Source: Candidatus Neomarinimicrobiota bacterium
GTDB taxonomy: Bacteria; Fidelibacterota; Marinisomatia; Marinisomatales; S15-B10
Assembly (NCBI GenBank): GCA_036476315.1
Contig: JAZGBI010000058.1
Coordinates: forward strand, 1 to 38,969
Direction of reading: 5' to 3'
Length of the DNA stretch: 38,969 nucleotides
The notes under the pieces: model-generated
Told to the model about the DNA's origin: nothing
Databases searched by the model: none
The model's input: only the letters and a program-made list of their open reading frames with translations
Made by a program: the position numbers and the translations under genes
Shown here: piece by piece, positions 28,719 through 33,945 of the stretch
Layout: every line of letters starts with the position of its first letter
Numbering within the stretch: position 1 is the stretch's first letter

Positions 28719-29725
28719 CGACATACCTCATCACAGGGGGTTGCGGGTTTATCGGCAGCAACTTCATCCGCTATATTCTAAGGAAGGATGAGTCGTGCCG
28801 CATCGTGAATCTTGACAAACTTACTTACGCGGGGAATCTGGAGAATCTCAGTGACATGGAGTCGAACCCTCGCTATCACTTTTTCAAGGGAGACATTTGC
28901 GATCAGAATCAGGTAGAACGCCTCTTCCTGGAGCATTCTCCTGATCTGGTCGTCAATTTCGCGGCGGAGAGTCATGTGGATCGGTCCATAGGAAAACCTG
29001 ATGACTTTATTCAGACGGATATATTTGGCGTGTTTGTTCTTCTGGAGGCGGCAAAGGAACACGGCGTCGATCTATTTGTCCAGATCAGCACCGATGAAGT
29101 CTACGGGAGTATTCAGAGTGGAAGTTTCCGCGAAACGGATTCCCTGATGCCCAGCAGCCCCTATTCCGCAAGCAAGGCCGGGGGAGACAGGCTGGCCTAT
29201 TCATACTATGTTACACACAAGCTTCCTGTGATCATAACTCGTGCCGGTAATAATTTTGGGCCCTACCAGTATCCTGAGAAGCTCATTCCTTTATTTGTGA
29301 CGAACGCTCTTGAGGATGAATTCCTCCCCCTTTACGGGGACGGCAAGAACGTCCGGGACTGGCTTTATGTCCTGGATCATTGTTCTGCGCTGGACTTTTT
29401 GGTGGAGAAAGGTACTCCCGGTGAGGCCTACAACATAGGGGGCGGGAACGAGAGGCAGAATATAGATATCACCCGGCAAATTTTGGATCATCTTGAAAAG
29501 CCGGACACACTAATTCGCCATGTTGAAGACAGGAAGGGTCATGACCGGAGGTACTCTCTTGATTGTTCGAAATTAACATCCTTGGGTTGGGCCCCTGAGC
29601 ACGATTTCGATTCAGCCCTGGAAAAGACTGTCGATTGGTACCGGACGAATGAGCGATGGTGGCGAAAAATCAAGTCTGGTGAGTTTCTCGATTATTATAG
29701 AACGCAATACCGCATTGAGATCTAG
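28715..29725 (+). CDS. rfbB: dTDP-glucose 4,6-dehydratase
   Basis: Converts dTDP-glucose to dTDP-4-keto-6-deoxyglucose with bound NAD+. This short-chain dehydrogenase-type protein of 336 residues has Thr-Gly-Gly-Cys-Gly-Phe-Ile-Gly-Ser-Asn-Phe at 7-17. The catalytic triad is Thr-Asp-Glu in Ser-Thr-Asp-Glu-Val-Tyr-Gly (125-131) plus Tyr150-x3-Lys154. Gly-Asp-Gly-Lys-Asn-Val-Arg-Asp-Trp and Asp-Arg-x-Gly-His-Asp-Arg-Arg-Tyr are the substrate-specific motifs of RmlB. I chose the TTG at 28715 because it overlaps the upstream stop and starts immediately before the dinucleotide-binding strand; a TTG at 28700 would add five residues. rmlA and rmlD are not in the window. Confidence 0.93.
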   Translation: MTTYLITGGCGFIGSNFIRYILRKDESCRIVNLDKLTYAGNLENLSDMESNPRYHFFKGDICDQNQVERLFLEHSPDLVVNFAAESHVDRSIGKPDDFIQTDIFGVFVLLEAAKEHGVDLFVQISTDEVYGSIQSGSFRETDSLMPSSPYSASKAGGDRLAYSYYVTHKLPVIITRAGNNFGPYQYPEKLIPLFVTNALEDEFLPLYGDGKNVRDWLYVLDHCSALDFLVEKGTPGEAYNIGGGNERQNIDITRQILDHLEKPDTLIRHVEDRKGHDRRYSLDCSKLTSLGWAPEHDFDSALEKTVDWYRTNERWWRKIKSGEFLDYYRTQYRIEI

Positions 29726-29794
29726 ACAGTCTTCAGAAACATGAGAAATAGGCTATTGGAGAAGATTAATAGAATCTCTGGAGAAGAATGTCAG

Positions 29795-30832
29795 ATGAAA
29801 CGAGTAAATGCAGTTCCCTTAATAATGATAATTTCCTTACACATGATGGTCCTGGCTCAGAGGGAGACGTCTCCTCAATGGCGTCCATTTGGTGAAATCG
29901 AGACCGAGTTCCTTGAACAGACAGTGGTAGAGGTCAAGATACCTGATCATCTGCAAGAGTTCACCTCGGTTGAGAAAGCTATTGATCCCGATGCATATGT
30001 GATTGGTCCTGGAGACCTTCTTGGAATTAGCATTATAACGGGTGAAAACATGACCTTTATTCTTCGTGTGAGCCCAACTGGAGACTTGCTGATTCCAGGT
30101 GTGGGCATCCATAATGTTGCGGGACTGTCACTTTCAGAAACCATTGCCCGCACAGAAGATTTTGTAAGGGAACAAGCTTATCGAAACTCCGAGGTGGATG
30201 TTATCCTTGTTGACATACGAAGATTCAAGCTTTTGACCACCGGAGCGGTTCGCGAGCCTGGATTCGTTACCATCTCGCCGACCGATCGCCTTACAGATGC
30301 AATCGACGAAGCCGGAGGATTACACAAGTACGCCGATGAAGAGAGTATCCGGGTGGTAAGGGCTGACGGTACAACTGAGCATTTTTCTCTTCGACCTTTT
30401 CTTCTGGAAGGGGATCTGGGTAGCAACCCTACTCTCCTCGAAGGAGACCGGATCGAGGTGCCGTTTCGGGAAGAGTTTCGAAACGATGTCGAGGCATCGG
30501 TAACCTACAACGAAAGTGCCGTTCTTGTGACCGGATTTGTTGTGAGACCGGGTCCTTATCATTATTTCCCAGGGTATACCGTTAGAGATTATGTTGGATT
30601 GGCAGGTGGAGTTGAAGAAAGAGGCTCTATACGAAGTATTGATGTCAACAGGCCAGACCAAGTCGTCGATGTGAAATACGATGATCTTGCGGAGCCAGGC
30701 GACATCATCTATGTCCCTCAGAATATCCGCTATTTCCTTTTTGGCCCGAGCAGTATGTTTCAAGTGGCTGGAGTCGTTTTGGGGGTAGTCTTTACCTACC
30801 AGAGACTCCTTGATCTACTTTCAAGCTCCTAG
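29795..30832 (+). CDS. Wza-like polysaccharide export protein (Poly_export/SLBB)
   Basis: A 345-residue envelope protein with a signal peptide (about 1-22). The Poly_export domain starts at Asp-Ala-Tyr-Val-Ile-Gly-Pro-Gly-Asp-Leu-Leu and continues with Val-Ser-Pro-Thr-Gly-Asp-Leu-Leu-Ile-Pro-Gly-Val-Gly. SLBB-type repeats follow (Thr-Gly-Ala-Val-Arg-Glu-Pro-Gly and Thr-Gly-Phe-Val-Val-Arg-Pro-Gly-Pro-Tyr). A hydrophobic segment close to the C terminus (about 320-337) could be the outer-membrane helix of a Wza-type channel. No lipobox cysteine is visible, unlike classical Wza. I preferred ATG 29795 (GGAG upstream, clean signal peptide) over ATG 29741. It is followed by a hairpin, the micro-ORF and the Wzz-like gene. 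Confidence 0.88.
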   Translation: MKRVNAVPLIMIISLHMMVLAQRETSPQWRPFGEIETEFLEQTVVEVKIPDHLQEFTSVEKAIDPDAYVIGPGDLLGISIITGENMTFILRVSPTGDLLIPGVGIHNVAGLSLSETIARTEDFVREQAYRNSEVDVILVDIRRFKLLTTGAVREPGFVTISPTDRLTDAIDEAGGLHKYADEESIRVVRADGTTEHFSLRPFLLEGDLGSNPTLLEGDRIEVPFREEFRNDVEASVTYNESAVLVTGFVVRPGPYHYFPGYTVRDYVGLAGGVEERGSIRSIDVNRPDQVVDVKYDDLAEPGDIIYVPQNIRYFLFGPSSMFQVAGVVLGVVFTYQRLLDLLSSS

Positions 30833-30859
30833 TGATTGAAAGTCAAGCACTTAATCACT
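30831..30859 (+). repeat. Bulged hairpin after the export gene
   Basis: AGTGATT (30831-30837) pairs with AATCACT (30853-30859), and inside it AAGT (30840-30843) pairs with ACTT (30849-30852) around the loop CAAGC, with a two-base bulge. It overlaps the stop codon of the export gene and ends 18 bases before the micro-ORF GTG. No T-run follows, so it may slow rather than stop transcription or protect mRNA ends. Confidence 0.5.
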
Positions 30860-30877
30860 CAAGCAAAGGGTCGTGAG

Positions 30878-30973
30878 GTGAGAACTCTTACCCCACGCGA
30901 AAAGAGACTTCTGGAGATGGGAAAAGAGGACGCGGAGATTGTCGGGGATCGAGTTGCGAGGAGGACACGATAG
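30878..30973 (+). CDS. 31-codon micro-ORF paralogous to the N terminus of the next gene
   Basis: A GTG-initiated frame of 31 codons (stop TAG at 30971) with AAGGG seven bases upstream. Its first 28 residues align without any gap to residues 1-28 of the downstream HTH-Wzz protein: 14 identities, including the Leu-Thr-Pro-x-Glu-x-Arg and Glu-Ile-x-Gly-x-Arg blocks, and several conservative changes. Many DNA differences between the two copies are synonymous or conservative, which suggests past or present selection on the peptide. It ends 2 bases before the next ATG, and the ribosome binding site of that gene (GAGGAGGA, 30958-30965) lies inside its last codons. It could be a leader peptide, a small partner protein or a decaying duplicate. 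Confidence 0.5.
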   Translation: MRTLTPREKRLLEMGKEDAEIVGDRVARRTR

Positions 30974-30975
30974 CC

Positions 30976-32340
30976 ATGAGGGGGTTGACACCTCACGAGC
31001 AAAGAGTATTTGAGTTAGTTAGAAGATACCCGGAAATCATCGGGAATAGAGGTGCCAGAGCGGAGATAGCGGGTGAAAATGGTATGAGTGAGAAAACTCT
31101 GAGGAATCGTATTGCCGATCTGAAACGGTATGGACTCGTCTCCGATACGGGCTTGCTCGGCAGCACATTTCCTTTGAGCGGGACAAAGGGCGACATTCCG
31201 GTAATTGGATACATCAAATACCTGTTGGAGCGATGGGTCACGGTCGCTCTCGTGGCGGGTTCAGTTTCCATTTTCGTCGCATTCGTCAGTCTTGTTATGC
31301 CCAAGACTTTCAGAGCCACGGCCGTGATTATGCCCTCTGAAATTGAGGAGAACTCTCCTTTTTTCAGTGCCCTCCAGGGGCTCTCAATTCCGGGATTGAA
31401 TATCGCCGGAAATGCCACGGACAGCAATCGACTTCTGGCGATTCTGGCGAGTCGAACGGTTGGCGAGAAAATTGTCAAGAAATTCGATCTCGTGAGAGTT
31501 TACGATGTTGAAACGCTGGAGGAAGCTTTGCTGGTCCTCGATAATAATCTTCATTTCAGTCTCCAGGACGAAGGTACCATAAGAATAGATGTGGACGCCA
31601 AGACGCCCTGGCTCTCCAGCCAGGAGTCTGACAGTATGGCAAGAGTTCTAACCACTGATCTGGCGAACTCCATGGTCCAGGAAGTTGATTTTGTGAATAA
31701 GGAGCTGAATTCGTCAACTGCTCGTCTACAACGTGACTTCATTGAACGACGCCTTGAGCAAAACGCAGAAGATCTGGCGAGAGCTGAGGAGAATCTTAAG
31801 GCATTCCAGGAATTCCATGGAACAATTCAACTTCCAGCTCAGACAGAGGCAACCATCACACTGGCGGCCGAGCTCAGTGCCCGGATCATGGCCAATGAGG
31901 TGGCTTATGAAGCCCTCAAGTCTCTTCGAAATCCAGACAGTCCAGAGATCAAGCGCGTAGAGTTTGAGATTGCTGCTGCCGAGCGGAAATTGGCCGAGAT
32001 CGAAAAAGGTCTCAAAGATGAATCGCGTATTTCTGGGGGACTTTTCCCTGTTCTTTCTGACGTTCCTGACCTTGGCATGCGACTGGCTAGATTGGAAAGA
32101 GAACTTGAAGTGCAGACCCAACTCTATACCTTTCTGGTGCAGCAATATGAACAAGCAAGAATTCAGGAGACGCGAGACACTCCTACAATTCAGGTTCTGG
32201 ATTGGGCCAAGGTGCCGGAAAAGAAGTACAAACCCCAACGCGCCTTAATGGTGTTCATCTCTTCTGTTCTGGCCACGGTCTTCTGTGTTGTAGGGCTATT
32301 GTTTTGGGAGAAATGGAAAGAGTTTGAATCCACAACATGA
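30976..32340 (+). CDS. Wzz-like chain-length/co-polymerase protein with N-terminal winged-helix domain
   Basis: 454 residues. Residues 3-58 look like a winged helix: Leu-Thr-Pro-x-Glu-x-Arg, then Ile-Ala-x-x-x-Gly-Met-Ser-Glu-Lys-Thr-Leu-Arg-Asn-Arg-Ile as turn and recognition helix, ending Leu-Lys-Arg-Tyr-Gly-Leu-Val. After a linker comes membrane helix 1 (about 88-108), a Wzz-type start Met-Pro-Lys-Thr-Phe-Arg-Ala-Thr-Ala, a long coiled-coil periplasmic region (about 230-350), the Pro-x-x-Pro-x-x-Pro-Gln-Arg-like approach (Pro-Glu-Lys-Lys-Tyr-Lys-Pro-Gln-Arg) and helix 2 (about 422-443). No tyrosine-kinase domain is attached. Wzz proteins set chain length with Wzy; both termini are cytoplasmic, so the HTH would face the DNA. 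The fusion is unusual. Confidence 0.85.
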   Translation: MRGLTPHEQRVFELVRRYPEIIGNRGARAEIAGENGMSEKTLRNRIADLKRYGLVSDTGLLGSTFPLSGTKGDIPVIGYIKYLLERWVTVALVAGSVSIFVAFVSLVMPKTFRATAVIMPSEIEENSPFFSALQGLSIPGLNIAGNATDSNRLLAILASRTVGEKIVKKFDLVRVYDVETLEEALLVLDNNLHFSLQDEGTIRIDVDAKTPWLSSQESDSMARVLTTDLANSMVQEVDFVNKELNSSTARLQRDFIERRLEQNAEDLARAEENLKAFQEFHGTIQLPAQTEATITLAAELSARIMANEVAYEALKSLRNPDSPEIKRVEFEIAAAERKLAEIEKGLKDESRISGGLFPVLSDVPDLGMRLARLERELEVQTQLYTFLVQQYEQARIQETRDTPTIQVLDWAKVPEKKYKPQRALMVFISSVLATVFCVVGLLFWEKWKEFESTT

Positions 32341-32448
32341 TCATGTGGCTCTCTACTCTGCAAACTTTTCGCTGAATAATCTCCTAAATCAAAATCCCTT
32401 CTACCATCCACCCTATTTATCAGGTACTGAATCTTCCTGAGGATTATC

Positions 32449-33945
32449 TTGAGTAAGGGACAACAAGGGTTTAGCCTGGAAAGAAATCCCAGGCTCTCTC
32501 CTAAGGGATTCAGTGCGAATGTCCATAGAAGAAAATCACTTGATGCGGTTTTCATTCTTACCCTTCCCTTTCTCTTCCTTCTGTTTCTGACCCTTGACGA
32601 ACCTGTTCGACATCTGGCGTGCGTCCTGACTGCTGCTATTTTCTTCTATGAGCTAATTACCTATGACTATGCCGAACTCTACGGTTTGTCTGGTCTCAAG
32701 GTAATCTCTTTTCCTTCGCTTGCTTTCGTTTCCTTTACCGTCATGATCGCAATACCCAGCATCTTCGTTGTTCTGAATGAGTCATCTGATCATGCCTACA
32801 CTTTTTTCTATGCCGTCAACTCCTTCTATCTTTTCTTTCCTTTCGGCTTGCTTCTTGCCAACTATTTTTTTCGAGTGGATCTGGATCGGCTTGCCATTCT
32901 AAGAAGGCAAAACTTTGTGAGACCCGTGAATGCAAATAGGATATTCTATATTCTTTGGATTCTGCTTGGATTGTGCCTCCTAATAATGGGCGCGTACATC
33001 CTCCGCATAGAAAAGATTCCCCTGCTTGAACTCATCAGGCATCCTGGTGAAAGGATGAGATTGGCACTGCTGCGTGAGGAATCGATGAAACTCCTGGAAA
33101 TCCCATGGCTCGAACATTATTTGTACTCATGGCTTAGGACGACTCTATTTGCTGTTGGGATTATTGCAAGCTTGTTCATGGCCGTTGTTGCCAAAGAAAT
33201 GAGGTTCAAGGTTTTGTTTGTTCTATTTCTCTTGTTCGGTTTGTTTAATAATTCCCTCACCATAACGAAAGCCCATGCGGCCTTTCTTATTCTCTCAATA
33301 GCCCTCTTCTACTTCCTTAAGAAGGGGGGGAAGATTTCGTTGCGTCTATTCCTGGGATCGGCATTTGGCGTGTTCTCATTCCCATACCTGATAGTGAAGT
33401 TCAAACATGAAGTTGTATTCGACTTTTTTAGAATACTATACATTCTTTGGCTCAGGATTTTCTACGTGCCAGCATGGGTTTTGTACAAGTACTTTGAGGT
33501 TTTCCCGAACTATCACGATTTTTTAGGTGGCAGAACTTCTCATCTCTATTCTTGGTTTCATAATGAAGGAAGTTTTCCCGTCGCCAACTACGTATTCCAG
33601 TATTTTAGCCCGACTGGTATCTCGAGTGGCAGTGCAAGTGCAAACTATCTCAGTTTTTTTTGGGCCGATTTCGGCTGGACTGGACTGATTCTATCATCGC
33701 TTGTGGTGGGTGTGATCACTCATTATTCCTACTGGATACTTTTACGTGCTTGCTGCTGGTTCAAGGATGTGGTTTATGTGACGACTGTCACGGTTCTTTC
33801 TATGTCGTTCTCTTTCTTTTTTGCCGGTGCGAACTTCCCCATCATAGTAGTAAGTCACGGGATAATTCTGTTCCTGATTGCGTTCTGGACCATTGAAGCA
33901 CTTCGGAAACGATATGAAATTTCACAACCAGCGGGGAATCTGTAA
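32449..33945 (+). CDS. Wzy-like polysaccharide polymerase
   Basis: A 498-residue integral membrane protein with roughly 11-13 hydrophobic segments and a large hydrophilic loop around 340-410 (Gly-Gly-Arg-Thr-Ser-His-Leu-Tyr-Ser-Trp, Ser-Ala-Ser-Ala-Asn-Tyr-Leu-Ser-Phe-Phe-Trp-Ala-Asp-Phe-Gly-Trp). This loop, and the Trp-Ala-Asp-Phe-Gly-Trp-Thr-Gly-Leu block after it, resemble oligosaccharide repeat-unit polymerases. Such proteins are poorly conserved, so the call rests on topology plus position beside wzz and wzx. The TTG start has GAGGA upstream. A T8 run at 33654-33661 lies in the loop's coding sequence. Confidence 0.75.
   Translation: MSKGQQGFSLERNPRLSPKGFSANVHRRKSLDAVFILTLPFLFLLFLTLDEPVRHLACVLTAAIFFYELITYDYAELYGLSGLKVISFPSLAFVSFTVMIAIPSIFVVLNESSDHAYTFFYAVNSFYLFFPFGLLLANYFFRVDLDRLAILRRQNFVRPVNANRIFYILWILLGLCLLIMGAYILRIEKIPLLELIRHPGERMRLALLREESMKLLEIPWLEHYLYSWLRTTLFAVGIIASLFMAVVAKEMRFKVLFVLFLLFGLFNNSLTITKAHAAFLILSIALFYFLKKGGKISLRLFLGSAFGVFSFPYLIVKFKHEVVFDFFRILYILWLRIFYVPAWVLYKYFEVFPNYHDFLGGRTSHLYSWFHNEGSFPVANYVFQYFSPTGISSGSASANYLSFFWADFGWTGLILSSLVVGVITHYSYWILLRACCWFKDVVYVTTVTVLSMSFSFFFAGANFPIIVVSHGIILFLIAFWTIEALRKRYEISQPAGNL

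Follow-up and report, generated by a model that had tools for sequence, protein, structure and literature searches.

The micro-ORF that precedes the hth-wzz gene in the window, which is the whole 38,969-nucleotide stretch analysed, is rather likely to be the decaying 5' end of a second, long-diverged hth-wzz allele that was stranded at the SLBB-wzz junction by exchange. It is a true but probably non-functional scar. Three functions or origins had been offered for this frame in the original prediction, a regulatory leader, a dimer-poisoning mini-protein and a remnant duplicate, and a remnant was the best of these readings. The DNA came from an uncultured marine bacterium, Candidatus Neomarinimicrobiota, with a 2.6-Mb genome in 112 contigs, and the interval is located on contig 58. 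It lies in a polysaccharide locus with genes for a UDP-sugar dehydrogenase, a sugar dehydratase, an SLBB export protein, HTH-Wzz and a polytopic membrane protein, together with flippase-like, sulfotransferase-like and glycosyltransferase genes; apart from SLBB and HTH-Wzz, these roles were read from the translations alone. The features of the interval were as follows.

29741..30832, + strand: SLBB/Poly_export outer-membrane polysaccharide export protein, the gene upstream of the micro-ORF (Pfam SLBB 1.9e-14, Poly_export 1.3e-9)
30866..30870, + strand: AAGGG, possible Shine-Dalgarno of the micro-ORF, 7 nt 5' of the GTG (sequence)
30878..30973, + strand: micro-ORF, decayed homologue of HTH residues 1-28, then RTR and TAG (alignment, profile, relatives)
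30958..30964, + strand: GAGGAGG, Shine-Dalgarno of hth-wzz, within the micro-ORF (sequence)
30976..31146, + strand: HTH domain of HTH-Wzz, residues 1-57 (profile similarity and model)
31147..32340, + strand: Wzz/GNVR polysaccharide co-polymerase part of HTH-Wzz, the exchanged module (Pfam GNVR 3e-11, Wzz 1.6e-5; trees)

The 31-codon frame was found with its own AAGGG and GTG, at the coordinates originally predicted. It runs from GTG 30878 to TAG 30971-30973, and its product of 31 residues is VRTLTPREKRLLEMGKEDAEIVGDRVARRTR. The stop ends 2 nt before the wzz ATG at 30976, and the ribosome binding site of hth-wzz is inside the frame, both as had been described. The GTG is located 45 nt after the SLBB gene, and the micro-ORF is in phase with that gene behind its TAG TGA stops. 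An alternative earlier start, TTG 30836, would give 45 codons. An open frame of 30 codons is expected at about 22% by chance at the local base composition, so the openness of the frame alone was not taken as evidence. No Rfam match was obtained in the window, and no promoter-like site was found on the + strand at 29600-32500.

The micro-ORF aligned without gaps to residues 1-28 of HTH-Wzz at an offset of 98 bases, with 13 identities in residues 2-28. The count rises to the 14 identities first reported if the GTG and ATG starts are taken as the same. Similarity between the two copies at the DNA level extended from the start codon to about codon 28, with none upstream of the GTG, and the longest exact match was 8 nt. 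Scoring was performed with a profile of 41 relatives from which the window's own two copies were left out. The micro-ORF scored 30.4, while the best of the other non-homologous 28-codon stretches of the window gave -1.8 and the maximum of 20,000 codon shuffles of the micro-ORF was -6.3. These differences excluded chance, and the micro-ORF is truly homologous to the N terminus of the HTH. The homology covers only part of the parent gene, as in a gene remnant, and its end places the junction of the two copies probably in the hth-wzz Shine-Dalgarno region, at about codon 28.

The present state of the micro-ORF was that of a decayed domain. H7 and P19, which were kept in 27 of 27 relatives, were changed to R and A; the loss of residues kept by all functional members is a further mark of a gene remnant. 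Residue 15, a core hydrophobic position in the first helix that was nearly always Ile or Val in relatives, was Gly. The score of 30.4 was lower than that of all 42 intact HTH homologues (minimum 48.2, scored with close relatives left out), a deficit that some 8-15 mutations in 81 nt would produce in the absence of selection. Without H7, P19 and a hydrophobic residue 15, the micro-ORF falls, judged by its sequence, outside the functional range of HTH domains. In an AlphaFold model of HTH-Wzz, built on a shallow alignment of 7 sequences and with a mean pLDDT of 74, helices lie at residues 6-17, 19-22, 25-34 and 39-51, the last being the recognition helix, followed by a small strand pair, and the sequence match of HTH-Wzz to the Csa3 HTH spans residues 30-56. 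By these positions the micro-ORF, which ends at residue 31, would retain the first helix and the start of the one after it, and would stop before the recognition helix and the wing.

The divergence of the two copies was analysed with the resident HTH as reference. Synonymous sites were saturated (pS 0.85), and pN was 0.29, giving a pN/pS of 0.34. The mean pN/pS for pairs of intact HTH domains was 0.37. The synonymous differences had been interpreted as selection for a peptide, but this does not follow; a ratio equal to that of intact genes reflects the past life of the sequence as an HTH. For most of the time since they separated, both lines evolved as functioning HTH domains, which explains the synonymous pattern that had been noticed between them. 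The amino-acid divergence of the micro-ORF equalled the between-genera level, and its pN to the HTH of G011, a genome of another family, was 0.26, about the same distance as to the resident HTH. A recent tandem duplicate was rejected, since low synonymous divergence was not found. The saturated synonymous sites and the distance to G011 showed that the micro-ORF is not a recent tandem copy of the next gene. The description of it as a paralogue of that gene is imprecise, as the micro-ORF is no nearer to it than to a homologue in another family.

An old in-place tandem duplication was also considered, in which a unit of about 98 bp at the HTH 5' end was long kept under selection and is now decaying. 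The copies are adjacent head-to-tail without a spacer, and R2 was common to only these two among the sequences compared. However, the saturated synonymous sites correspond to the age of genus or family splits, yet no relative carries a tandem copy, and a non-functional 98-bp copy of such age would be unrecognisable. In addition, column bootstraps (27 columns) did not place the two copies as each other's nearest, and the fragment was without a clear nearest relative. These results suggested that an old tandem duplication is unlikely.

The occurrence of the micro-ORF was consistent with a remnant. None of 62 other distinct genes with this HTH domain, most of them hth-wzz from a single Marinimicrobia order and none of the same genus, had a similar fragment upstream; the best hit was a 9-residue chance match. 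The stub was therefore not conserved where the neighbouring gene was kept. Loss of the short frame beside a retained downstream gene in close relatives had been proposed as the observation that would speak against a selected peptide; the loss was seen in these 62 genes, none of which belongs to the same genus. A conserved short frame, as a selected peptide would leave, was not found; the micro-ORF was present in this genome alone among those examined. When 130 genomes of the order were searched with a profile, the hits came to essentially one HTH per genome, with the micro-ORF as an extra in this one; its E-value in that search is inflated by its own row in the profile. The HTH domain was present in 60 of the 130 genomes and in 0 of 41 further genomes searched in the class, and the records of relatives with hth-wzz were mostly Candidatus Neomarinimicrobiota / Marinimicrobia. 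A search of its own genome gave no second HTH-Wzz copy, and no close relative of the whole Wzz protein was found in a search of genome contigs. The collections searched yielded no sequence from the same genus or species. Short HTH matches in G019:C41 and G042:C90 were tried as further micro-ORFs and rejected, as both were contig ends. The same HTH domain was also seen without a Wzz match on contigs (L088, L095 and L103) of MAGs recorded as Euryarchaeota, where it sits downstream of a different membrane-protein-like gene.

Exchange at this locus was examined with trees of the neighbouring genes. In the SLBB tree, this genome grouped with G004, G008, G011 and G024 (support 99/98 and 100/96), and in the Wzz trees the genomes of that group fell into three separate groups. 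A Wzz core tree constrained to the SLBB grouping was rejected (AU p 8e-47), as was the reverse, and the SLBB and core trees conflict strongly (AU p under 1e-40); the tested groups were named after the trees had been seen, and these p-values are optimistic. HTH distances tracked SLBB with a partial correlation of 0.50 (0 of 2000 permutations) and did not track the Wzz core (0.05, p 0.19). The same trend was observed within genera. G055 and G041, of one genus, shared 71% in SLBB, 81% in the HTH and 30% in the core, the fall coming near residue 60, and G011 and G024, also of one genus, gave 56%, 70% and 32%. This meant that Wzz cores have been exchanged under a conserved SLBB-HTH block, and these comparisons mark the HTH/Wzz hinge, near residue 60, as a point of recurrent exchange. 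The hinge is located at 31147-31185 in the window, and a homologous hinge was seen in L009, L026, L003 and L015. In L076:1-1410 (G063:C6), hth-wzz breaks off behind the HTH (after residue 66) and is joined there to a Wzz end and a flippase-like gene, both on the other strand. Either an inversion or faulty assembly at this same hinge may underlie the arrangement. This joint and the contig breaks inside the HTH of two genomes suggest variability at the HTH/Wzz point.

A stranded stub would arise from such an exchange as follows. A complete hth-wzz would have been brought into the locus, and the resident hth-wzz would have been cut after about codon 28, which would leave the stub between SLBB and the incoming gene. 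A junction inside the resident HTH together with a complete incoming gene would give exactly the present arrangement. The start of the micro-ORF, a GTG 45 nt after SLBB, resembles the intact gene starts in the genomes with the nearest SLBB, G004, G008 and G011, where wzz begins with GTG, GTG and TTG at 57-64 nt after SLBB. The present wzz, like most others, has an ATG within a few nt of a stop; a stop lies within -20 to +10 nt of the wzz start in 47 of 60 genes, and SLBB-wzz stop-start coupling is usual in relatives. Translation of the stub may still begin at its GTG, and from its stop ribosomes may pass on to wzz. Such a relay would stand in for the SLBB/wzz coupling of most relatives. Three results were counted against allele exchange. 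The resident HTH itself resembles the HTHs of the SLBB clade, and either copy may be the newcomer; the stub frame is still open; and 27 columns are too few to place the fragment with respect to donor and original allele. The final T-R-stop of the micro-ORF was considered as the end of a donor SLBB gene (relatives have ATK/ATR and then ATG) and was dropped, as it comprises only two codons.

Translational-coupling leader ORFs are short frames that end at the start codon of the next gene and hold its Shine-Dalgarno. The micro-ORF resembles them in both respects. In contrast to them, it derives from the family of the downstream gene, is not conserved and is known here from sequence alone. The AAGGG-GTG, a stop that falls only 2 nt short of the wzz ATG, and a frame that contains the wzz Shine-Dalgarno make translational coupling from the micro-ORF to wzz plausible. 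A functional leader peptide, whose translation would control or relay that of hth-wzz with its amino-acid sequence mostly irrelevant, would agree with these signals and with SLBB-wzz coupling as the rule in relatives. It would also agree with a predicted long-range stem of 10 bp plus 7 bp from the micro-ORF start to wzz codons 2-8. However, the stem is weak, since its z-score fell from -2.3 in a window framed around it to only -0.6 in a wider window; the micro-ORF was seen in one genome alone; and the coupling may be a mere side effect of the stub. We consider a functional leader quite doubtful. The partners of the statistically weak stem are 30871-30890 and 30979-30998. There is a slim chance that an exchange scar was recruited as a leader, in which case translation of the stub would open the stem and relay ribosomes to HTH-Wzz, replacing the lost SLBB-wzz coupling.

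As for the suggested mini-protein that would poison the HTH domain of HTH-Wzz or compete with it, support was poor and such a function is very improbable: L4, T5, E8, I21, D24, R28 and the frame are retained, but the recognition helix and wing are absent, H7, P19 and the core residue 15 are lost, and none of the 62 other HTH genes has an upstream counterpart. An assembly chimera of two strain variants of the locus would fit a genome in 112 contigs and the contigs of other genomes that end inside the same HTH (G019:C41, G042:C90), but it is hardly credible, as the junction forms a natural gene start with a Shine-Dalgarno, SLBB and wzz are neighbours in the usual order, and exact matches between the copies of at most 8 nt are too short to mislead an assembler.

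The stub of an exchanged allele has a known likeness in the wzy remnants of Salmonella O-antigen clusters (PMC3715488), as both are non-functional fragments of a polysaccharide-pathway gene in a recombination-shaped cluster. The fragment here differs from the Salmonella remnants: it stems from the 5' end of a wzz-type gene, an intact homologue follows it head-to-tail, its frame is still open beside its start, and its host is an uncultured marinimicrobial lineage. The downstream gene resembles Wzz/GNVR polysaccharide co-polymerases in its Wzz and GNVR domains, whereas HTH-Wzz adds an N-terminal winged-helix-like domain. No description of this architecture was found in the open-licence papers searched. 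HTH-Wzz is possibly a membrane-anchored regulator, and the architecture is a more interesting by-product than the micro-ORF itself. In the Marinimicrobia order, a DNA-binding-type domain is fused to a co-polymerase, stays with the upstream export gene and is repeatedly re-joined to unrelated Wzz cores. This re-joining makes the HTH/Wzz hinge a place where polysaccharide loci naturally exchange parts, and the stub is a candidate for the scar of a single exchange of this kind; as a micro-ORF, it is probably debris.
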